Assembly (NCBI GenBank): GCA_027624955.1
Contig: JAQBTG010000010.1
Span: forward strand, 1 to 64,000
DNA: 64,000 nt
Reading direction: 5' to 3'
Source of the DNA: Pseudomonadota bacterium
GTDB lineage: Bacteria > Pseudomonadota > Alphaproteobacteria > UBA828
The notes below the pieces were generated by a model, which made no database searches, was not told the DNA's origin, and saw only the letters and a list, made by a program, of their open reading frames with translations. The position numbers were made by a program, and so were the translations under genes. This document shows, in pieces, positions 1,043 to 24,773 of this stretch (positions are counted from its first letter, which is position 1; every line of letters begins with the position of its first letter).

Positions 1043-1132
1043 TGGCGGATGGGGTGGGATTCGAACCCACGAAGGGTGTTACCCCTTGCCGGTTTTCAAG
1101 ACCGGTCCCTTCAACCACTCGGGCACCCATCC
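1043..1132 (-). tRNA. tRNA-Ser (anticodon TGA)
   Basis: The minus strand reads a full 90-base class II tRNA. The 7-bp acceptor stem is GGATGGG with CCCATCC, the discriminator is G and CCA is encoded. The anticodon loop is CTTGAAA (anticodon TGA, reading UCA-type serine codons), a long variable arm follows, and the T arm contains GTTCGAATC. The 3' end faces the RepA/IS1380 remnant, the side on which elements that use tRNA genes as attachment sites are found. Confidence 0.95.
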
Positions 1133-15481: not shown

Positions 15482-16081
15482 CTAATCCGGCAACTGATCC
15501 GCGCGCTCGACAATTATTGCGAACCTGTCACCGAGTGCGGCGAGGCTGGCGTCATGCAGGCTGGCGGCGTCAATCACGCCGCCGGAGGGGGTCGGCAAAT
15601 CGCGCGTGGCGGCGGCGGCGGAGACGAGGGTGGATCGGTAGCCGAGGTCGAGCGCCGCGCGCACGCTGGCGCTGACGCACATGTGGGTCATGAAGCCGAC
15701 GAATATTAGATTTTTCGTATTTAGCTCCTGCAGCTTGTCATGCAGGATAGTGCCGGCGAAGGCGTTGGGCAGGTCTTTGCTGATGATGGTTTCGCTGCCG
15801 GCTTGCGCCACTTGCGGCGCGATCTGGCCGCCCGCACCGTCGAGATCGAAAGCGCCGCCAGCCTGGCCTTTATGCACGATATGAATGATCGGCGCATCGG
15901 CGGCACGTGCGCGCGCCAGCACCCGCCCGGCTTCCGCAAGCGCTGCATCCACGCCCGGCAGTGGCACGCCGCCAGTGACATATTCCATTTGGCAATCGAT
16001 CAGGACGAGAGCGGAATCGGAAAGCGCATTTGGCGTCATATCGGCACCGGCCATTTCCAACAGAGTTTTCGGTTGGCTCAT
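15482..16081 (-). CDS. Isochorismatase-family cysteine hydrolase
   Basis: The 199-residue protein has the catalytic triad of this alpha/beta family: Asp29 in LVLIDCQ, Lys102 in SKDLPNAF and Cys135 in FMTHMCVSASVRAA. Members hydrolyse amides such as nicotinamide, N-carbamoylsarcosine or ureidoacrylate (RutB). It is divergent from the triple-RidA gene, 107 bases away. A RutB-type hydrolase beside a RidA-type protein recalls the Rut uracil pathway, but the other rut genes are missing, so the true substrate is open. Its length is normal for the family. Confidence 0.9.
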   Translation of the reverse strand: MSQPKTLLEMAGADMTPNALSDSALVLIDCQMEYVTGGVPLPGVDAALAEAGRVLARARAADAPIIHIVHKGQAGGAFDLDGAGGQIAPQVAQAGSETIISKDLPNAFAGTILHDKLQELNTKNLIFVGFMTHMCVSASVRAALDLGYRSTLVSAAAATRDLPTPSGGVIDAASLHDASLAALGDRFAIIVERADQLPD

Positions 16082-16188
16082 AAAATTTTTCCTCTTGCTG
16101 CGTTCAACAAACGGTACTTTATGGCGTCGTGAAATGCGATAAAGTCTTTTGTGAAACGCAGAACCAGCATCGGGATAAGGGGACGAAC

Positions 16189-17385
16189 ATGCCAGCCGAC
16201 AAAAAAACCTACTTCACACCGAAGAGCCATAATTGGGCGCAGAAGCTCCCAATGTCGGCAGCGGTGCGCGCCGGTGATCTGCTCTTTATCTCGGGCCAAG
16301 TGAGTGCCGACACCAATCTCAAACCAGGCCATCTCGGCGATGTGAAGGCGCAAGCGCGGGCGGCCTTCGACAAGATCAAGGCGCTAGTCACCGAGGCCGG
16401 CGGTTCGATGGCGGACATTGTCGATATCATGTCGTTTCATTCCGATGTGCGTGATATTGACGCCGTCTTCGATGTCGGACGACAGGTGTTCAAGAAGGAT
16501 TTTCCGGCCTGGACGGCGCTCGGCATGCACGGCACATACGGTCCGGAATTTCTCGTCAGTATCCGCGCAATTGCCCATCTCGGCGCCGGCAAGAAGAAAT
16601 GCGTCACGCCTAAATCGATGACCTGGATGAACAAGCTGCCGATGTCGGCGGCCTGCACCAAAGGCGATTATCTATTCACCTCCGGCATCGTTTCCGCCGA
16701 TGCGGCAGGAAATGTCGTGTCACCCGGCGATCACTATGCTCAGGCGCGTGTTTGTTACGACCTTTTGCGCGATACCTTGAAGGCCGGTGGCACCAGTCTC
16801 GAGGATGTGGTTGATATGATCTGCTTCAATCAGGACGCACGCGGCATGGACGATGCGGTCAATTGCTGGTGCAACGAAGTGGTGCAAAACGTGCCGGTCA
16901 ACGGCGTGACCTCCTATACCGCCATCGCCATGACAGGATTTCACAAGATCGGCATGGTCGGCGCCTACCGCGCGATCGCCGATTTCAGCAAAGGCCCGCG
17001 CATCGCTGCCAATATCCCGAGCGTGCATTGGTATAAAGAGCGCATCGCGGGGGCGGCGAAAAAGAAGGAAGGCCGGCTGATCGGCATTTCCGGCCAAGTC
17101 GCGTCCGATGGAGCGAAAAATATCATCGCACCAGGCGACCCGGCGGCCCAGGCGCGCTATTGCTTCAGCCAGATCCGCGGCATATTGGAAAAACACGGCG
17201 CCAGCCTCGCCGATGTGGTCGAGATCACGTCATTTCATAAAGACCCGCGCGCTTGGAGCCAAGTGATGAAGGTCGGCGAAGAGATTTGGGGCAAGGGCAG
17301 GGGACCGGCGTGGACCCCGATCGGTTGCACTGGCCTTTACCTAGAAGGCTATCAGCACGAGATTTACGCTCTGGCGATGGTCTGA
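16189..17385 (+). CDS. Three-domain RidA (YjgF/YER057c/UK114) protein
   Basis: The start is the ATG at 16189, preceded by GGGGAC, giving 398 residues; an in-frame start 60 bases upstream lacks a ribosome-binding site. The chain contains three consecutive RidA domains, about 1-132, 133-268 and 269-398. The first two begin almost identically (TPKSHNWAQKLPMSAA and TPKSMTWMNKLPMSAA), and each has an SG(Q/I)VSAD-type strand. RidA normally is a homotrimer of 130-residue chains with active sites between subunits, so this polypeptide could fold as a one-chain trimer. The substrate-binding arginine of imine-deaminating RidA (Arg105 in E. coli) aligns with Trp108, Tyr243 and Trp375, so classical 2-aminoacrylate deamination is doubtful. 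It may act in the neighbouring amide or amine pathway. Confidence 0.88.
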   Translation: MPADKKTYFTPKSHNWAQKLPMSAAVRAGDLLFISGQVSADTNLKPGHLGDVKAQARAAFDKIKALVTEAGGSMADIVDIMSFHSDVRDIDAVFDVGRQVFKKDFPAWTALGMHGTYGPEFLVSIRAIAHLGAGKKKCVTPKSMTWMNKLPMSAACTKGDYLFTSGIVSADAAGNVVSPGDHYAQARVCYDLLRDTLKAGGTSLEDVVDMICFNQDARGMDDAVNCWCNEVVQNVPVNGVTSYTAIAMTGFHKIGMVGAYRAIADFSKGPRIAANIPSVHWYKERIAGAAKKKEGRLIGISGQVASDGAKNIIAPGDPAAQARYCFSQIRGILEKHGASLADVVEITSFHKDPRAWSQVMKVGEEIWGKGRGPAWTPIGCTGLYLEGYQHEIYALAMV

Positions 17386-17424
17386 CGGGTTGGCCCTGCG
17401 CTACGATATGCGTGAAACAGAAAC

Positions 17425-17517
17425 AGAATGCGACTGGCGTTCTGACACGAGCGACGGCGCGTCTGAATTGATACGCGATAGCCAAAAGCTTGGCCGCGCC
17501 CACCCGCCGTCTGAGGG
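17425..17517 (+). promoter_or_regulatory. Structured leader element, copy A (riboswitch-like)
   Basis: This 93-base stretch aligns without gaps to 22608-22700. It opens with a 7-bp hairpin (AGAATGC at 17425-17431, GCGTTCT at 17437-17443, five-base loop), then a five-base linker and a 69-base domain beginning GAGCGAC. Possible inner helices are GGCGCG (17456-17461) with CGCGCC (17495-17500), and GCCAA (17481-17485) with TTGGC (17490-17494). The conserved end CTGAGGG (17511-17517) supplies the ribosome-binding site for the PhyH gene ten bases downstream. A conserved CCC (17503-17505) could mask its GGG. No known RNA class is recognised. Confidence 0.6.
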
Positions 17518-17526
17518 GCAACAAAT

Positions 17527-18306
17527 ATGAAATTAAACCAAAATCAATTGGCCGAGTTCGAGCGCAGCGGCTGGCTTTTTCTGGAAAACCTGTTCTCCGC
17601 CGAGGAAGTCGCCGTTCTTACAGAAGACGTGCCGCGCATCTTTTCGCTTCGGCGCGAAGAGGTGGTGCGTGAGAAAGATGGTGAGACACCGCGCACCGCC
17701 TTTGCAGCGCAATACTACTCCGAACCCTTTAGGCGCCTCAGTCGCCATCCCAGGCTGATCGAACCGGTACGCCAAATCCTGGACGGCGATGTTTATCTGC
17801 ATCAGTTCAAGGTCAACGCCAAAGCCGCCTTTGACGGCGATGTCTGGCAATGGCATCAAGATTACGGTACCTGGCAGCGCGACGATGACATGCCTGATGC
17901 TCGGGCGCTCAACATCGCCCTCTTTCTGGAAGACGTAACCACCTTCAATGGCCCGCTCATGTTAATTCCGGACAGCCATCGTGACGGCGTCTTTGGCGCT
18001 GGACATGACCTCGCCACCACGTCCTATCCATTGTGGACACTCGACAAGGAAACCGTCACCCGTCTCGCCGATGAAAAAGGCATGGTTGCACCATTGGGCA
18101 AAGCCGGCTCGGTGCTGATGTTCCACGGCAATCTCGTACATGGTTCGCCCGGGAACATGAGCCCCTTCAGCCGCACCATCGTCTATATCAGCGCCTGCCA
18201 TGTCGATAACCATATCCGTAAGTTTCAGCGCCCGGAATGGATCGCCCATCGCGACTTTACGGCTATCGACTGCCTGCCTGACGATTGTCTGACCGCGCCC
18301 TCTTAG
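17527..18306 (+). CDS. PhyH-family Fe(II)/2-oxoglutarate dioxygenase, EctD-like
   Basis: The 259-residue protein belongs to the phytanoyl-CoA dioxygenase family. The iron ligands are His110 and Asp112 (WHQDYGTW) and His205 (HGNLVHG), with Arg216 for 2-oxoglutarate. The stretch from HQFKVN through MPDARALNIALFLEDV to NGPLMLIPDSH resembles ectoine hydroxylase closely, but EctD has HSDFETWH where this has HQDYGTWQ, and no ectABC genes are nearby. It probably hydroxylates an amino acid or related small compound. The gene follows the triple-RidA gene and is preceded directly by the structured leader at 17425-17517, which contains its ribosome-binding site. Confidence 0.88.
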   Translation: MKLNQNQLAEFERSGWLFLENLFSAEEVAVLTEDVPRIFSLRREEVVREKDGETPRTAFAAQYYSEPFRRLSRHPRLIEPVRQILDGDVYLHQFKVNAKAAFDGDVWQWHQDYGTWQRDDDMPDARALNIALFLEDVTTFNGPLMLIPDSHRDGVFGAGHDLATTSYPLWTLDKETVTRLADEKGMVAPLGKAGSVLMFHGNLVHGSPGNMSPFSRTIVYISACHVDNHIRKFQRPEWIAHRDFTAIDCLPDDCLTAPS

Positions 18307-18355
18307 GCCAGGCGCAACCGGTCATCTTTAATTTAATAGCCCTTAACACCGGGCC

Positions 18356-18420
18356 GGCGCGCCCGCGCCACATGGCTCCCTGAGGGCTACTCGTATTAAC
18401 TAACTCGGGCGCGCCTCTTT
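18356..18420 (+). terminator. Long-loop palindrome after the dioxygenase gene, possible terminator
   Basis: GGCGCGCCC (18356-18364) pairs perfectly with GGGCGCGCC (18407-18415), and TCTTT follows on the plus strand. The 42-base loop makes it an unusual terminator; it lies between two convergent genes (dioxygenase and amidase), where termination is expected. It overlaps the leader-like copy on the other strand. Confidence 0.4.
18385..18420 (-). repeat. Partial third copy of the leader motif
   Basis: On the minus strand, bases 18418-18385 read a motif nearly identical to 22640-22666 of copy B: GCGCGCCCGAGTTA, a GTTA duplication, then ATACGAG and AGCC. The upstream hairpin and terminal CTGAGGG arrangement of copies A and B are not kept. 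It lies 80 bases past the amidase stop codon. Confidence 0.5.
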
Positions 18421-18501
18421 ATATGTTCCTTCAAGCGCCAGGCGGCCGCGACCGCGGCCTTATCTTGGCGCGCATGCCGGAATTTAAAATGCATTTCGGT
18501 A

Positions 18502-20064
18502 TCACATATTTTTCCAGTTGCCGAGTTTCTCCACCGCATCGGCGACCTGCAAAACGGTCAGATCATCGAAATGCTTGCCGACAACCTGAAAGCCAACCGG
18601 CAGTCCGTTGCTCATCCCACACGGCACGCTGATAGCCGGATGGCCGGTGAGATTAATGCATGCGGTGTTGTGAATCATGTTAAGCGAATTGCCGACACGC
18701 TCTTCCAACGGTGAATCATTGTCGGGAATTGGCGGCGCCACCATGGGCACCGACGGCATCACGAGGACATCGTACTTCTCCAGCAATTCATCATACGAGC
18801 GGTTGATCTGGGCGCGAATATTCTGCGCCTTGGCATGGTATCGACCGTAATAATCATTCTGTAAATATTCGCCCGCTAGCAAAACGAGCTTGGCTGAAAC
18901 GGATATGTCGTTCATGCGGGATTTTGCAGATTTGGCCACATTGTCGAGTAGCTGGGTGTTGTAGAATCCAGACCAGTTGGTGCCGATGCCATTGCCCTTC
19001 AACATGAACGCGGTGGAGCCTTCGAGAATAATGATACTCCATAGATGAAAGGCATCCTGATGGCGCGGATTAGAAACTTTGGTAACGCTTGCGCCTTTCT
19101 TTTGGAGACGCGCGATCGTCTCCCGCACTTTCTTATCGACGCCTTTTTCGCTTCCGGGCAGCCCGGTATCGCCCCACGGATCGGGAAAGCCGAAGCCATC
19201 TTCGAGCACGCCGATCTTGAGCCCTTTGCAGCCTTTGCCGAGGGCGGCGGTGTAATCCTTCACATAGTTCTTTGGAATAACGCCGCGCTGGCGGGGATCG
19301 AGCGGGTCGGGACCAGCCATCGCCGTCAACAAGCGAGCGCAATTTTCCACATTGTCCGCCATAGGGCCAACATGATCCATGGTCATTTCGATCATCATGG
19401 CGCCGGTGTAGGGCACGAGGCCATAGGTTGGTTTGTGGCCAACGATGCCGGTCCAAGACGCGGGAATGCGGATCGATCCGCCTTGGTCACCGCCCGTGGT
19501 GAGTTCACAATCGCCCGCAGCGATGGACGCGCCACTGCCGCCTGACGAGCCGCCGGCCGAATGACCCGGATTGTGCGGATTGCGCACCGGCCCGAGAGCG
19601 CAAGTATGGCTGCCGCCCGAGAACGACATATCCTCGCAATTGGTCTTGCCGATAATGGTGCCGCCGGCATCGAGAATTCGGGTAACGATGGTGGCGTCGA
19701 TATCGGGCACATAGCCCTCGAACAGGCGACTGCCGTTCATCATCGGCAGGCCAGCAACGCAGACCGCGTCTTTGACGCCGACCTTGAGGCCCTTGAGAAT
19801 TCCCTTGCCCGACCCCTTGATATCCGAGCGCCAATACCATGCGTTATAAGGATTGTCTTCCGGCTTCGGGCGAGCACCCGGGGTGCGGGGATATTTGACC
19901 TCGGGCTTGTCCTCGGTCATGGCGTCGACGCGGCGCGAGGAATTGACCACGCCCTGCATAAATCCCTGGTAGGCCACTCCTTCTTCTTGGCTCATTTCGA
20001 TGCCGAAAGATTCGGCCAATTCCCGGACCCGGGCAACGCTTGGTAAATTCACTCCGATAGGCAT
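18502..20064 (-). CDS. Amidase signature-family amidohydrolase
   Basis: The 520-residue protein carries the Ser-cisSer-Lys triad of the amidase signature family: Lys98 in VGVKDAV, Ser173 in the GGSSGGSG loop and Ser197 in GGSIRIPAS. The helical amino-terminal extension (1-90) and the length match bacterial amidases that act on aliphatic or aromatic amides, some linked to nitrile hydratases (none is present here). It is 26 bases downstream of the aminotransferase gene on the same strand, so an operon is likely. Together they may release ammonia or an amine from an amide and transaminate the product. Confidence 0.92.
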   Translation of the reverse strand: MPIGVNLPSVARVRELAESFGIEMSQEEGVAYQGFMQGVVNSSRRVDAMTEDKPEVKYPRTPGARPKPEDNPYNAWYWRSDIKGSGKGILKGLKVGVKDAVCVAGLPMMNGSRLFEGYVPDIDATIVTRILDAGGTIIGKTNCEDMSFSGGSHTCALGPVRNPHNPGHSAGGSSGGSGASIAAGDCELTTGGDQGGSIRIPASWTGIVGHKPTYGLVPYTGAMMIEMTMDHVGPMADNVENCARLLTAMAGPDPLDPRQRGVIPKNYVKDYTAALGKGCKGLKIGVLEDGFGFPDPWGDTGLPGSEKGVDKKVRETIARLQKKGASVTKVSNPRHQDAFHLWSIIILEGSTAFMLKGNGIGTNWSGFYNTQLLDNVAKSAKSRMNDISVSAKLVLLAGEYLQNDYYGRYHAKAQNIRAQINRSYDELLEKYDVLVMPSVPMVAPPIPDNDSPLEERVGNSLNMIHNTACINLTGHPAISVPCGMSNGLPVGFQVVGKHFDDLTVLQVADAVEKLGNWKNM

Positions 20065-20090
20065 TACTTATTTCTCCCGAATGCTAAGTG

Positions 20091-21503
20091 TTATTCTGCG
20101 GCTGCGGCTACGGCGGCAGCACGCAATCCATTGCTTTGAACTAGTGCTTCGATTTCGTCCAATACTTTCCGGGTGCGGACGAACATGTCATCGATCTCGG
20201 CCTCGTTGATAATGAACGGCGGCGCGAAGATCACCGATTCTCCGATCGGCCGGAGGATCAATCCATTGCGTTGCGCCGCGCGCACCACCTGCTCGCCGAT
20301 TAGATGTTCCTCGGCGAAGGGTGTTTTGCTGGCTTTGTCGGCGACGATTTCCAATGCACCGATCAAGCCGACGCCGCGCGCCTCGCCGACCAACGGATGA
20401 TCGGCAAAACTTTGCAATCCCGCCTGGAAACGCGGCGCCACATTGCAGAGATTTTCGAACATGCCGCCAGGCTCGGTGATCAACTCTAAGGTTTTTAGCG
20501 CAACCGCGGCGCCCACGGGATGGCCCGCCGTGGTGAAGCCATGCGGAAATTCGCCCAACGCCTCGGCGGCGTGCATCAATTGCGCGTCGATTTCAGGCGA
20601 CATCAGCACCACACCCATCGGGAAATAACCCGCCGTCAGGCATTTCGAGGTGCAAATGATATCGGGGCGGAAGTTGAAGGTTTGCGAGCCCCACATGCTG
20701 CCCGTCCGGCCAAAGCCGCACACCACCTCATCGGCGATAATAGCGATATCGTGCTTTCTTAATACCACCTCGATCTTTTCAAAATAGCCTTGCGGCGGCA
20801 CCAGCGCGCCGCCGGCGCCCATCACGGGCTCCGCGATGAAGCCGGCAATCGTATCGGCGCCTTCGGCCTGGATCAGGGCTTCCAAATTGTCAGCCAGACG
20901 CTGAGCGTAATCGCTTTCACTTTCGCCGGGTCTGCCGTCGCGCCAATAATGCGGGCAATCGGTATAGAGGATTTCCTTGAGCGGCAGACCGAAGCACTCG
21001 ATATATGGTTTGCCGTTGAGGCTGCACGAGGCGACCGTGGTGCCGTGATAGGCGTTCTTGCGCGAGATGATTTTGCGCTTCTCCGGCCGACCGGCGCCTT
21101 TGTTCAACATCCACAGCATCTTGATCGCGGTGTCATTGGCTTCCGAGCCAGAATTGACGAAATAGACGCGCTTCATCGGCACCGGCGCCAGTTCGATCAA
21201 ACGCTCGGCGAGATCGATCACCGGCGCGGCCGTGCGCCCGAAAAAGGTGTGATAGGCGGGCAGTTTTTTCATTTGCGCATAAGCCGCTTCGGCGATGCGC
21301 TCCTCGCTAAAACCGACGACGATGTTCCACAGGCCCGAAATACCTTCGATGTAGCGTCGACCCTGATTGTCGATAACGTAGATGCCGTCACCGCTTTCTA
21401 GCACCAGTGGCCCATCCTCGGCCAAACTCGGCAGATGGGTGAAGGAGTGGAGGTGATAGGCGAGGTCGCGTGCCTCGGCTGAATTTGATTGCTGTCCGCT
21501 CAT
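20091..21503 (-). CDS. Class III PLP-dependent aminotransferase (omega-amino acid:pyruvate type)
   Basis: I start at the ATG at 21503 (MSGQQSNSAEARDLAYHLHS), preceded by AGAGG; the frame is open for 246 more codons upstream, but that part lies opposite the dehydrogenase gene. The 470-residue enzyme has the class III layout: SGSEANDTAIK near 118-128, AEPV at 224-227, the PLP-ring Asp258 and the Schiff-base Lys287 in CTSKCLTAGYFPMG. Relatives transfer the amino group of beta-alanine, putrescine-type or other omega-amines to pyruvate. It heads the operon with the amidase and is divergent from the 2-hydroxyacid dehydrogenase, with 99 bases between start codons. Confidence 0.9.
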   Translation of the reverse strand: MSGQQSNSAEARDLAYHLHSFTHLPSLAEDGPLVLESGDGIYVIDNQGRRYIEGISGLWNIVVGFSEERIAEAAYAQMKKLPAYHTFFGRTAAPVIDLAERLIELAPVPMKRVYFVNSGSEANDTAIKMLWMLNKGAGRPEKRKIISRKNAYHGTTVASCSLNGKPYIECFGLPLKEILYTDCPHYWRDGRPGESESDYAQRLADNLEALIQAEGADTIAGFIAEPVMGAGGALVPPQGYFEKIEVVLRKHDIAIIADEVVCGFGRTGSMWGSQTFNFRPDIICTSKCLTAGYFPMGVVLMSPEIDAQLMHAAEALGEFPHGFTTAGHPVGAAVALKTLELITEPGGMFENLCNVAPRFQAGLQSFADHPLVGEARGVGLIGALEIVADKASKTPFAEEHLIGEQVVRAAQRNGLILRPIGESVIFAPPFIINEAEIDDMFVRTRKVLDEIEALVQSNGLRAAAVAAAAE

Positions 21504-21602
21504 GATCGTTCGCCTCTTTCGGTGGTTGGCATTGCCCGCTCGGCGGCATTTCGCTACAGAATGACCGAGCGGGACCCATCTCGACAATCGAAAAGAATAG
21601 CC

Positions 21603-22568
21603 ATGCCCAAGGTCATCATTCATGACGCCGTCGACCCAGCAGCGCGCGCCCTGCTCGAAGCGCGTGAAAACATGGAAATCGTCACCGTCGAACGCGATGA
21701 ACGAGAGCGTCTGCGCCGTGAATTGGCCGACGCGGACTCTATTATCCTGCGCTATTTGCCGCTCGATGCCGACGATCTGCGCGCCGCGCCAAATCTCAAG
21801 GTCGTCGCCCGCCACGGCGTCGGCTATGACAATATCGATATGGTTGCGGCCAGTGCGTGCGGCATTCCCGTCGCCACCATCGGCGATGCCAACTCGGTCA
21901 CCGTGGCCGAGCTCGCGCTTTATCTCATGTTGGCCGCCGCCAAGCAGGGCCTGGTCTATGACGCGGCTTTGCGCAGCGGCGATTGGTGGCAGATACGTGA
22001 ATCCGCTCACACCATCGAGCTGTATGAGAAAACTGTGCTCGTCGTCGGCTTCGGCCGCATCGGCAGCCGCGTGGCGCCGCGCTGCAAAGCCTTCGGCATG
22101 GAGGTGATGGTGTGTGACCCTTACATCCCGCAAACCGCGATCAGCGCTGCGGGATTCACGCCGGCGCCGGATTTCGCCGCGGCACTGTCCGACGCCGATA
22201 TCGTTACCCTGCACACCCCATTGAACGACGAAACCCGTCACATGATCGACGCGCCGGCCCTGGCAAGCATGAAAAATGGCGCTTTGCTGGTAAACACCTC
22301 GCGTGGCCAGGTGGTAGATGGCGATGCGTTAAGCGCGGCGATCACGTCGGGTCATATATACGCCGCCGGTCTCGATGTGTTCGAAGAAGAACCGCCGGAG
22401 CCCGGCAGCGCGCTCCTAAGCCATACCAACATGGTCTTCACCCCACATATCGGCGGCCTCACCCGCGAATGCTTTCACCGCTCCGCCATCGTCTGCGCGC
22501 AAAACTCGCTCGACGCCATGGATGGCAAACTCGACCCGGCCTATGTCGTCAATCCCGAAGTGCTGTGA
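21603..22568 (+). CDS. D-isomer specific 2-hydroxyacid dehydrogenase
   Basis: The ATG at 21603 gives 321 residues starting MPKVIIHDAVDPAARALLEA, as in homologues; the 38 codons before it are not conserved-looking. The NAD-binding loop is GFGRIG at 149-154, with Arg234 (NTSRGQVVDG), a catalytic glutamate near 263 and His282 (TPHIGGLT). These enzymes interconvert 2-keto and D-2-hydroxy acids; C-terminal-binding-protein-like members are close. The structured leader at 22608-22700 and the MFS gene follow on the same strand, suggesting joint transcription. Confidence 0.9.
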   Translation: MPKVIIHDAVDPAARALLEARENMEIVTVERDERERLRRELADADSIILRYLPLDADDLRAAPNLKVVARHGVGYDNIDMVAASACGIPVATIGDANSVTVAELALYLMLAAAKQGLVYDAALRSGDWWQIRESAHTIELYEKTVLVVGFGRIGSRVAPRCKAFGMEVMVCDPYIPQTAISAAGFTPAPDFAAALSDADIVTLHTPLNDETRHMIDAPALASMKNGALLVNTSRGQVVDGDALSAAITSGHIYAAGLDVFEEEPPEPGSALLSHTNMVFTPHIGGLTRECFHRSAIVCAQNSLDAMDGKLDPAYVVNPEVL

Positions 22569-22607
22569 GCGCACCATTAATAAATTTACCCACCGGCACC
22601 GCCAATC

Positions 22608-22700
22608 GGAATGCTCTATGCATTCCGGCAAGAGCGACCGCGCGCCCGAGTTAATACGAGGCAGCCAAGAGAGCGGACGCGGCCGCCCGGCTCCTGAGGG
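22608..22700 (+). promoter_or_regulatory. Structured leader element, copy B (riboswitch-like)
   Basis: Copy B pairs base for base with 17425-17517. Its hairpin is perfect (GGAATGC at 22608-22614 with GCATTCC at 22620-22626); compared with copy A the outer G-C pair is A-T and an A-T pair is a T-G wobble, so pairing is kept while sequence varies. In the 69-base domain 51 positions are identical. CCGCG (22638-22642) can pair with CGCGG (22678-22682), and GAGC (22632-22635) with GCTC (22690-22693). The end CTGAGGG (22694-22700) is the ribosome-binding site of the MFS gene, and a conserved CCC (22686-22688) can pair with its GGG. Confidence 0.6.
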
Positions 22701-22712
22701 ATCAAACGAAAA

Positions 22713-23981
22713 GTGAATAAAGACCAGCAATCCAACTGGACCATCATCCTGCTGGCGGTCGGAGCGGGAATTATCACCGCGATGCAGGTCGGCAAGGTGC
22801 CGCCGGCATTGCCGGTCATAGCCGAGGATCTGGAGCTATCCCGCGTTACCGCCGGCCTGGTGGCGTCGCTGTTTTTCGTCGTCGGCGCGCTGTTCGGCGT
22901 CGCCGTGGGCGCCATTGCCGACCGGTTTGGCGAGCGCCGTCTGCTGTTTGGCGGCCTCATCCTTCTGGCTCTCGGCAGCCTGATCGGCGGCCTTGCCGCC
23001 GAGACCGGCATCTTGCTGGCCACGCGCGTGATTGAGGGTGTGGGGTATATTGCCGTCGCTGTATCGGCGCCCAAAATCATCTCCGGCGCTGCGCGGCCGG
23101 GCGATGTGCCGTTAGCCATCGGCATCTGGTCGACGTTCATGCCGATGGGCATGGCGATCATCATGGTGCTGTCACCGTTTATGCTGGACGGCATCGGCTG
23201 GCAAGGCCTGTGGCTGGTCAACGCCGCTGTCTTGGCCGCCTTCATCGCTGTTCTGCCGCTCGGCCTGCGCCCGAAAAGCCGGCGTGGGCAGGAGCCCCGA
23301 TCGCTACAACAGGCAAACGACGGCGCGCCCAGAATTGAAGCACCACATGCCGAGGCACCGCGCGCCTTCGATTGGCCCGGCACCAAAGCCTTGATGGCGC
23401 GCCCCGGCCCGTGGCTGCTCGGCGTTATTTTTACGCTCTATTCGCTGCAATGGTTCGCCGTCATGACCTGGCTGCCGACATTTTTGATCGAGACCCAGGG
23501 CCGCTCGCTGACCAACGCATCGCTGTTTGCCGCGCTTGTGGTGTTCGTCAATGTGTTCGGCAACCTCGCCGCCGGCTGGATAATGATGCGGCGCGGCGCC
23601 CCGCGCTGGAGTCTGATCGCCTTCTCCTTCGTCATCATGGCGACGACTATCCCGCTGGTGTTTTCCGCCGCCGTCGGCGGCGATGGAAAAATCCTGTTGG
23701 CCATCGCCTTCAGCTCGCTCTCCGGCCTGTTGCCCGCCGCCTGCCTCGCCGGCGCGGCTGCACATGCGCCGAGCCCAGCACAAAACGCGATGTCGAACGG
23801 CTTCGTCATTCAGGGCGCGACCATCGGCAGTTTGCTTGGCCCGCCGATCATGGGTGCGCTGACGAGCAGCTTCGGCAGCTGGGAAAATTTCTGGTGGGTG
23901 ATGCTGATCGGCCCGGCGATCGGACTGGTGGTGGTAGTACGGTTGAGGAGCGCGGAGCGGCGCTTACTAGGTCCCGCCTAG
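22713..23981 (+). CDS. Major facilitator superfamily transporter
   Basis: The 422-residue protein starts with GTG and has about twelve hydrophobic helices in two halves, split by a hydrophilic loop near 190-220. The loop between helices 2 and 3 carries the MFS motif ADRFGERRLLFGG. The composition resembles the CynX/NimT group of anion or small-molecule transporters, but specificity is unknown. It lies after the 2-hydroxyacid dehydrogenase on the same strand, and its translation start sits 12 bases beyond leader copy B, so expression may respond to the substrate it carries. Confidence 0.9.
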   Translation: MNKDQQSNWTIILLAVGAGIITAMQVGKVPPALPVIAEDLELSRVTAGLVASLFFVVGALFGVAVGAIADRFGERRLLFGGLILLALGSLIGGLAAETGILLATRVIEGVGYIAVAVSAPKIISGAARPGDVPLAIGIWSTFMPMGMAIIMVLSPFMLDGIGWQGLWLVNAAVLAAFIAVLPLGLRPKSRRGQEPRSLQQANDGAPRIEAPHAEAPRAFDWPGTKALMARPGPWLLGVIFTLYSLQWFAVMTWLPTFLIETQGRSLTNASLFAALVVFVNVFGNLAAGWIMMRRGAPRWSLIAFSFVIMATTIPLVFSAAVGGDGKILLAIAFSSLSGLLPAACLAGAAAHAPSPAQNAMSNGFVIQGATIGSLLGPPIMGALTSSFGSWENFWWVMLIGPAIGLVVVVRLRSAERRLLGPA

Positions 23982-24113
23982 AGACTATTTGGGCAGTGCC
24001 CCTCAACAAAGCGTTTTAGATTCTGCCAAGCACAACCCAATCACTCGGTCGGCCGCCCATATTTCCTTTGGCCTTGGGCGAGCCTAACAGTACCGAGATT
24101 CCGCCGAATAGCG

Positions 24114-24773
24114 TTATTCTGCCGCCGCCTTATTCGCTTCCTCCCTCACTTTTTCGATGCACTCTGCCGCCGTCATGACATGCGCAGTGGAGAATGCCAG
24201 CGCTATCAAGGTGGAACGATGAAGTTCGTCGGCGGAGAGGGCGCCGTAGCCGAGGTCGGGGTAGGCGAGGGTGGCAGTGCAATCTGAAATGAAGGCGACG
24301 CGGTAGTCGCGGAACATCGCGTCGCGCGCCGTGGCGTGGCAGCAATTCTCTGTGGTGACGCCGGTCACGATTACCGTGTCGGTGCCGAGGCCGCGTAGGA
24401 TCATGTCGAGATCGGTGCCGAAAAACGCGCTATAGCGGTGCTTCTTGATGATCACTTCGCCGGGCTCGGGCGCGATGTCAGCGTAGACCTCAATGCCGTC
24501 AGAGCCATCCACCAGCCCTCGGCCTTCGGCAATGGCCGGATATATATCGGCGAAGCGTCCGGCGTCTGTGCCATCCGGCCGATGCGCGTGGGTAGTGTAG
24601 ATGACGCTGATCCCGGTGCCCCGGCAAAAGCCGATCAGCTCTTTCAGCTTGGGCAGCATCTCGCGGCCGGCTGGCACTTCGAAGGCGGCGCCGGGTTTGA
24701 CGAAATCATTCTCCATATCGACGATGATTAAAACCGTCCGCGCCGGATCCATGCGCTCTATCTGTTGCGGCAT
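24114..24773 (-). CDS. Isochorismatase-family cysteine hydrolase (second copy)
   Basis: The 219-residue enzyme has Asp19 in LIIVDMENDF, Lys111 in IKKHRYSAF and Cys144 in TTENCCHATARDA, the triad of this family. It belongs to the longer branch that includes N-carbamoylsarcosine amidase, maleamate hydrolase and biuret hydrolase, and differs from the shorter protein at 15482-16081. It is convergent with the MFS gene and closes the accessory catabolic region. The promoter should lie in the divergent 297 bases before mltB. The substrate is probably a carbamoyl or amide compound. Confidence 0.9.
   Translation of the reverse strand: MPQQIERMDPARTVLIIVDMENDFVKPGAAFEVPAGREMLPKLKELIGFCRGTGISVIYTTHAHRPDGTDAGRFADIYPAIAEGRGLVDGSDGIEVYADIAPEPGEVIIKKHRYSAFFGTDLDMILRGLGTDTVIVTGVTTENCCHATARDAMFRDYRVAFISDCTATLAYPDLGYGALSADELHRSTLIALAFSTAHVMTAAECIEKVREEANKAAAE

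Follow-up and report, generated by a model that had tools for sequence, protein, structure and literature searches.

By lineage and size, the nearest known system to the element analysed here is that of the CIR, the Caulobacter CcrM-associated intergenic repeats of Chen and Shapiro (2003), which we compare by description only, as summarised in PMC2229807. The Rhizobium-specific intergenic mosaic elements (RIME), cited in PMC2873474 and PMC2573895, are described from rhizobia. A 2024 survey (PMC11109978) defines mobile or repeat sequence candidates (MRSC) by their many copies and inconsistent orientation. In the present work, a stretch of 64,000 nt from an alphaproteobacterial genome (the window) was found to contain copies of a sequence that is present many times, inserted or absent at orthologous sites, tandem in places, and constrained in its fold on one strand; in the copies examined, it is confined to intergenic DNA. 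We conclude that the window copies probably represent a non-autonomous structured intergenic repeat that is dispersing through alphaproteobacterial genomes.

A reading of the window from its letters alone (the sequence-only reading) had described two copies as a 93-base structured leader repeated without gaps (copies 1 and 2, Table 1). The gap-free match is borne out: 17425-17517 and 22608-22700 are identical at 65 of 93 positions, and at 51 of 69 in the downstream domain, and blastn within the window gives E = 3e-11, well above chance. The 7-bp hairpin at the upstream end is paired in both copies, as had been noted (AGAATGC/GCGTTCT and GGAATGC/GCATTCC). Of the compensatory change seen in it, the outer pair does differ on both sides (A-T versus G-C), whereas the inner change is one-sided (T-G versus T-A). 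CTGAGGG, placed directly before the start codon, does end both copies, with gaps of 9 nt (ATG at 17527) and 12 nt (GTG at 22713), so that this claim was roughly right. Overlooked were two further copies in the window, a family of 29 copies in the genome, a distance from the upstream stop codon of exactly 39 nt in both copies (stops at 17385 and 22568), and the decay of copy 1, which scores 55 bits with model R1, where copy 2 reaches 85 and intact copies reach 102-105. The third hairpin (H3) of copy 1 is mostly unpaired, and the 5′ module is recognisable before copy 2, not before copy 1. Copy 3 has lost the segment between H2 and H3; copy 4 stands in tandem behind it. Both are on the minus strand, in the gap where the PhyH and amidase genes converge. 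The GAGGG in the tail of copy 1 is a plausible candidate for the Shine-Dalgarno sequence of PhyH. Beyond the immediate neighbours, the stretch 15482-24773 encodes two isochorismatase-like hydrolases, the RidA-domain protein, the PhyH dioxygenase, the amidase, a class-III aminotransferase, the 2-hydroxyacid dehydrogenase and the MFS transporter, and is probably a catabolic cluster.

Table 1. Copies of the repeat in the window and the genes next to copies 1 and 2.
Feature	Position	Strand	Details
RidA (Ribonuc_L-PSP) domain protein	16129..17385	+	upstream neighbour of copy 1
Copy 1 (decayed)	17425..17517	+	H1 17425-17443, core 17444-17517; 39 nt past stop of RidA-domain gene, 9 nt ahead of PhyH start
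Copy 1, R1 match	17444-17517	+	55.1 bits, E 6.8e-15
Copy 1 tail CTGAGGG and spacer to PhyH start	17511..17527	+	
PhyH-family dioxygenase	17527..18306	+	downstream neighbour of copy 1
Copy 4 (degenerate, long variant with insert before H3)	18340..18422	-	R1 19.4 bits, E 7.8e-04
Copy 3 (degenerate)	18428..18495	-	H1 remnant ~18495-18479, core 18478-18428; R1 29.2 bits, E 7.6e-07
D-2-hydroxyacid dehydrogenase	21489..22568	+	upstream neighbour of copy 2
Copy 2, 5′ module (recognisable part)	22591..22607	+	CACCGGCACCGCCAATC
Copy 2	22608..22700	+	H1 22608-22626, H2 22632-22643, Hb 22646-22661, H3 22669-22684 (imperfect), tail 22692-22700; 39 nt past dehydrogenase stop, 12 nt ahead of MFS start
Copy 2, R1 match	22627-22700	+	85.2 bits, E 3.3e-24
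MFS transporter	22713..23981	+	downstream neighbour of copy 2

Aligned copies define a unit of roughly 110-150 nt in the window's genus. From 5′ to 3′ it consists of an unpaired 5′ module, hairpins H1, H2 and Hb, the constant AGCCAA(G), hairpin H3, and a tail. The 5′ module often reads AACnCACAAAGAyTC, followed by AACGGCACCACC. H1 is a hairpin of 7-9 bp, CCGGAATGC-N5-GCATTCCGG; H2 has a 4-bp stem and a loop of GACC or GACT; Hb, CC-GA-GU-UAAU-AC-GA-GG, is a stem with tandem G.A pairs; and H3, 3′ of AGCCAA(G), has a 6-bp stem closed by GGA or GGAN. The constant 3′ part is GCCCGGCG followed by the tail TTTGAGGG, the constant tail in the genus being CGCCCGGCGTTTGAGGG; AGCCAAG and CGCCCGGCG can be used as alignment anchors. 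Long variants carry an insert before H3 (L016, L017, L022, L023 and window copy 4), short variants are devoid of Hb and H3 (L024, L026), and direct repeats of the unit form tandem arrays. At locus L004, the end of the upstream gene resembles a tail remnant of a preceding unit, which seems to add a short C-terminal extension. In genera g2 and g18 (L042, L046, L056, L057, L060, L180, L182), long outer hairpins stand on either side of the core, and the ends of these copies resemble, by eye, TATACCAA...TTGGTATTA; these are possible terminal inverted repeats, absent from the window's genus.

The structure of the repeat is real, strand-specific and under constraint. Folding energies of the two window copies taken singly are unremarkable (z -0.8 and -0.3), and the case for structure therefore rests on comparison, not energy. 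The sequence-only reading was right that the element is structured, and the compensatory change is strong, as counts of paired changes across copies attest. For three hairpins in 23 copies, two-sided change is found in 17 cells, compared with 4.2 in shuffles; a 74-column model of 32 copies holds 38 two-sided changes, compared with 8.3, and this signal is lost when partners are shifted by 1-3 columns. The two inner positions of H3 are occupied in 115 copies by tandem G.A (57), Watson-Crick pairs (45) or other combinations (13), so that 102 of the 115 are acceptable, versus 42 after shuffling. Tandem G.A is present on the given strand alone; the opposite strand would carry T.C. Because one hypervariable stem is flanked by invariant sequence, its pairing can be assessed without a structural alignment across the class. 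It is fully paired in 36 of 48 distinct sequences from named genomes (shuffled 3.2), in 18 of 19 from family and class genomes (shuffled 2.6), and in 19 of 29 from the genus plus G028 (shuffled 4.4), figures that are to be read as counts and not as probabilities, since the shuffles ignore relatedness.

Intact copies are predicted to take up largely the expected fold both as RNA and as single-stranded DNA. Most H3 loops are GGA or GGAT/GGAC/GGAG; GGAA is rare. Very stable DNA loops are formed by d(cGNAg) and d(cGNABg), and the H3 loops fit these better than they fit RNA GNRA loops. We regard this as a lead only, for which a literature search returned no confirming paper; it hints that single-stranded DNA is the folded form. 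At sites shared between genomes, H2 and H3 often show paired differences from one copy to the other, and the frequencies of stem types differ between genomes, which suggests copying or conversion among the copies within a genome. The commonest stem type in the window's genome is the imperfect GAGAGC/GCGACC, implying that part of the amplification came from a master that bore a mismatch.

With a covariance model made from copies of the genus, 29 copies are detected in the window's genome, where copy 2 as a query has more than 20 clear matches on both strands; five congeners have 88, 83, 103, 11 and 0. In the window's family, 17 of 21 genomes carry the repeat. Across the class, model R1 detects it in 32 of 289 alphaproteobacterial genomes and 24 of 223 genera, usually in several copies per genome, and of 16 carriers in a phylum sample of 299 genomes, 15 belong to the same class, the remaining one having a single weak match. 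Among the matches listed in an exact pattern search are Azospirillum, Nitrospirillum, Niveispirillum, Paramagnetospirillum, Roseomonas and relatives, as well as Rubritepida, Erythrobacter, Qipengyuania, Sphingomonas, Terasakiella and Caenispirillum. The repeat also occurs on replicons listed as plasmids (Azospirillum, Niveispirillum) and on contigs called viral. One of the latter, IMGVR_UViG_2708742415_000004 (47.9 kb; L366, L404, L406), carries phage tail-tube and portal-like genes and has 18 exact-pattern copies; several of these stand in direct tandem arrays with a period of 108 nt, the units differing from one another by paired stem changes. A genome of a different family, G028 (L036, L053, L163-L171), has at least 20 copies about 90% identical to the genus consensus, reflecting either horizontal transfer or misbinned contigs; copies from the window's own family outside the genus are, unlike these, less than 80% identical to that consensus. 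Two contig ends, G000:C46 (L013) and G000:C69 (L015), fall inside a copy, as expected if the repeat breaks assembly.

Orthologous gaps are often empty, which indicates that the element inserts. The RidA-PhyH gap holds a copy in the window's genome and in G001, and measures about 6-15 nt without the element in G002 and G004. The site before the MFS gene is filled in the window's genome and in G002, and empty in G004; in G002 the MFS orthologue and its paralogue each have a copy just upstream. The expectation that the element would be found upstream of orthologous PhyH and MFS genes thus fails for PhyH in G002 and G004, and for MFS in G004. We assessed 14 sites systematically, with queries taken from the 3′ end of each upstream gene. 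With flanking genes conserved, L012 measures 140 nt versus 4 nt in two congeners; L003 measures 173 nt versus 8 nt, and is filled in a third congener; L019, 158 nt versus 12 nt; L002, 216 nt versus 66 or 1 nt; L022, 164 nt versus -4, with the element in opposite orientation in another congener; and L024, 93 nt versus a 17-nt overlap of the flanking genes in three congeners. The remaining sites are shared between congeners. For sites that are empty in several congeners, insertion would be a simpler reading than loss. The copy at L024 (1468-1560; orthologues L361-L363) is a short variant between convergent genes, and the upstream protein has had its end altered by the insertion. A few empty sites pointed to CCGG..TTTGAG(A)GG, which resembles the tail, as a target site, but the pattern was not consistent.

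Using a custom codon-usage gene caller, we placed copies relative to genes in two sets. Most copies follow a stop codon. The first holds 97 copies from six genomes, five of the window's genus plus G028: 52 lie between convergent genes, 25 between codirectional genes and in the same direction, 8 between codirectional genes and in the opposite direction (p 0.005 for 25 versus 8), and 4 between divergent genes. In this set, the start of H1 clusters 38-40 nt past the upstream stop codon. The second set holds 133 copies from named genomes of other genera. All of these lie clear of called genes. They are over-represented in convergent gaps (odds ratio 3.1, p 8e-6), and between codirectional genes they show no preferred direction, with 29 copies in the same and 28 in the opposite direction. 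When a same-strand gene follows, it often starts 7-15 nt past the tail. Where a copy has inserted immediately ahead of a start codon, the tail GAGGG may serve as a Shine-Dalgarno sequence, which would explain the leader-like look of both window copies. The 43 same-strand downstream genes match 71 Pfam families, any one shared by at most three genes. They and 67 upstream genes have no function in common, and no transposase appears among the best 25 families of either scan. We found no gene-specific regulatory role of the repeat.

How, then, should the family be understood? A riboswitch or other structured leader acting in cis on the PhyH and MFS genes, as the sequence-only reading proposed, would account for two copies that end 9 and 12 nt ahead of start codons, for copies just upstream of the MFS orthologue and paralogue of G002 and of the PhyH orthologue of G001, and for the lack of an Rfam match. 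It is contradicted by the 29 copies in the genome, most of which are not upstream of a same-strand gene, by the unrelated neighbours (the 43 downstream genes share families three at a time at best), by the predominance of convergent gaps, by random orientation outside the genus, and by orthologous sites that are filled in one genome and empty in another, those before PhyH and MFS included; moreover, copy 1 has lost most of its H3 pairing. We give such a leader almost no credence. To choose between structured RNA and decaying repeat was a false choice, the family being a structured repeat and copy 1 a decaying member of it. A set of independently transcribed small RNA genes is hardly more probable. 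The suhB RNA (RF00519) sets a precedent for a multi-copy alphaproteobacterial RNA that is not tied to neighbouring genes (PMC1273637), and strand-specific structure and tandem arrays would suit such a family. But the copies begin only tens of nucleotides from stop codons, no terminator can be seen that belongs to them, and dozens of diverged copies, rapidly gained and lost, are unlike dedicated small RNA genes.

It is also conceivable, if rather unlikely, that the repeat functions at gene 3′ ends. Transcribed together with the upstream gene, it would act as a processing, stabilising, Rho-dependent termination or ribosome-stalling signal, as has been proposed for some REPs, and its spread in many copies would be partly adaptive. 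REPs near stop codons have been reported to affect translation (PMC12306157), which counts for such a role, as does the strand-specific structure. The best arguments for it come from the window's genus, where an H1 start 38-40 nt past the upstream stop is far commoner than elsewhere and most copies in codirectional gaps share the direction of the genes (25 versus 8). The strong preference for convergent over divergent gaps (52 versus 4) points in the same direction, but avoidance of promoters alone explains it. The orientation bias is gone in the 133 copies from other genera, orthologous gaps often exist without the element, and the hairpins are not followed by a U-run.

We therefore return to the dispersing intergenic repeat as the preferred reading. 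Under it, the folded single strand, as a single-stranded DNA or RNA intermediate, would be recognised by a trans-acting enzyme, and copies would accumulate where insertion is tolerated, mainly past stop codons and between convergent genes. Counting against mobility, no mobilising enzyme was identified, and a RAYT-type transposase is missing from most carriers; no target-site duplication or consistent ends were established; and the stop spacing of 38-40 nt and codirectional orientation in the genus are not neutral and might reflect a role at the 3′ ends of genes. A more specific version is that these are class-wide alphaproteobacterial mobile repeats, copied through a folded single strand by an enzyme that is not known to act on such elements; in that strand the loops and flanks would be invariant, the stems hypervariable yet complementary, and tandem G.A interchangeable with Watson-Crick pairs. 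This we put forward tentatively, as a possibility that is more doubtful than not.

Searches for a known family or partner bear on these points. With Rfam, to which the sequence-only reading had referred, no family matched either window copy, and gathering as well as lax E-values gave nothing relevant for the window copies or for intact copies from other genera. The sole Rfam match in the window is a tRNA gene (1046-1132, minus strand). A RAYT/Y1 transposase was rejected as partner, since PF01797 is absent from the window's genome (G000) and occurs in only 5 of 22 other carriers, 17 lacking it. A phage origin was likewise discarded, with no match in the phage collection, and a scan of ten genes neighbouring the arrays of the viral contig showed no mobilising enzyme. 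By reading, no U-run follows the hairpins, and we set aside an intrinsic terminator. A link to GANTC and CcrM was also dropped: only 24 of 97 copies contain GANTC, which stands in the unpaired 5′ module some 25 nt before H1, does not recur in the core, and is absent from both window copies. The constant tail sequence was not found in the text of the papers searched, and a search for alphaproteobacterial repeat families returned only papers on CIR, RIME, and REPs or MITEs in general.

These results have some practical consequences. Dispersed repeat copies that end before start codons imitate a conserved leader, and recognising this averts a false riboswitch claim. The repeat adds a structured family that Rfam lacks, one that occurs in many genera of Alphaproteobacteria and falls at contig breaks in the assembly of the window's genome. 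Its hypervariable, mostly complementary stems should make a useful negative control for covariation-based discovery of riboswitches. Finally, the clean empty and filled sites between congeners make the chemistry of insertion, and the enzyme, directly testable.

The repeat works like REP/BIME, CIR, RIME or MRSC elements, a likeness in behaviour. With MITEs it shares insertion polymorphism between close relatives, and no terminal inverted repeats or target-site duplications are evident at the empty/filled pairs compared in the window's genus. REP/BIME sequences are palindromic, GC-rich and intergenic, occur in many copies, in tandem or mosaic arrays and near stop codons, and retain complementary stem changes (PMC2817692, PMC3733652), and many intergenic palindromic copies, tandem or mosaic, are what we observe. 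But the present unit is a string of four hairpins, whereas a REP is one palindrome of 20-40 nt, and GTAG precedes H3 in only part of the copies, so that the architecture of a GTAG-headed palindrome is not shown. MRSC-65-2 (PMC11109978) is similarly structured, with strong covariation, dozens of copies per genome and inconsistent gene orientation; it differs in having a single long stem and repeated UYCCGG and in occurring in diverse phyla, whereas the present repeat is multi-hairpin and essentially restricted to one class. RIME (PMC2873474, PMC2573895) are alphaproteobacterial, intergenic and mosaic, with conserved secondary structure. CIR, in the summary of PMC2229807, are alphaproteobacterial, intergenic and multi-copy, about 110 bp long, with two-armed RNA-like folds and without a known transposase; they have a conserved GANTC exposed in a hairpin loop, a feature that the present repeat does not share. 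We regard the repeat with due caution as a new family of a known kind, one that may already have a name.
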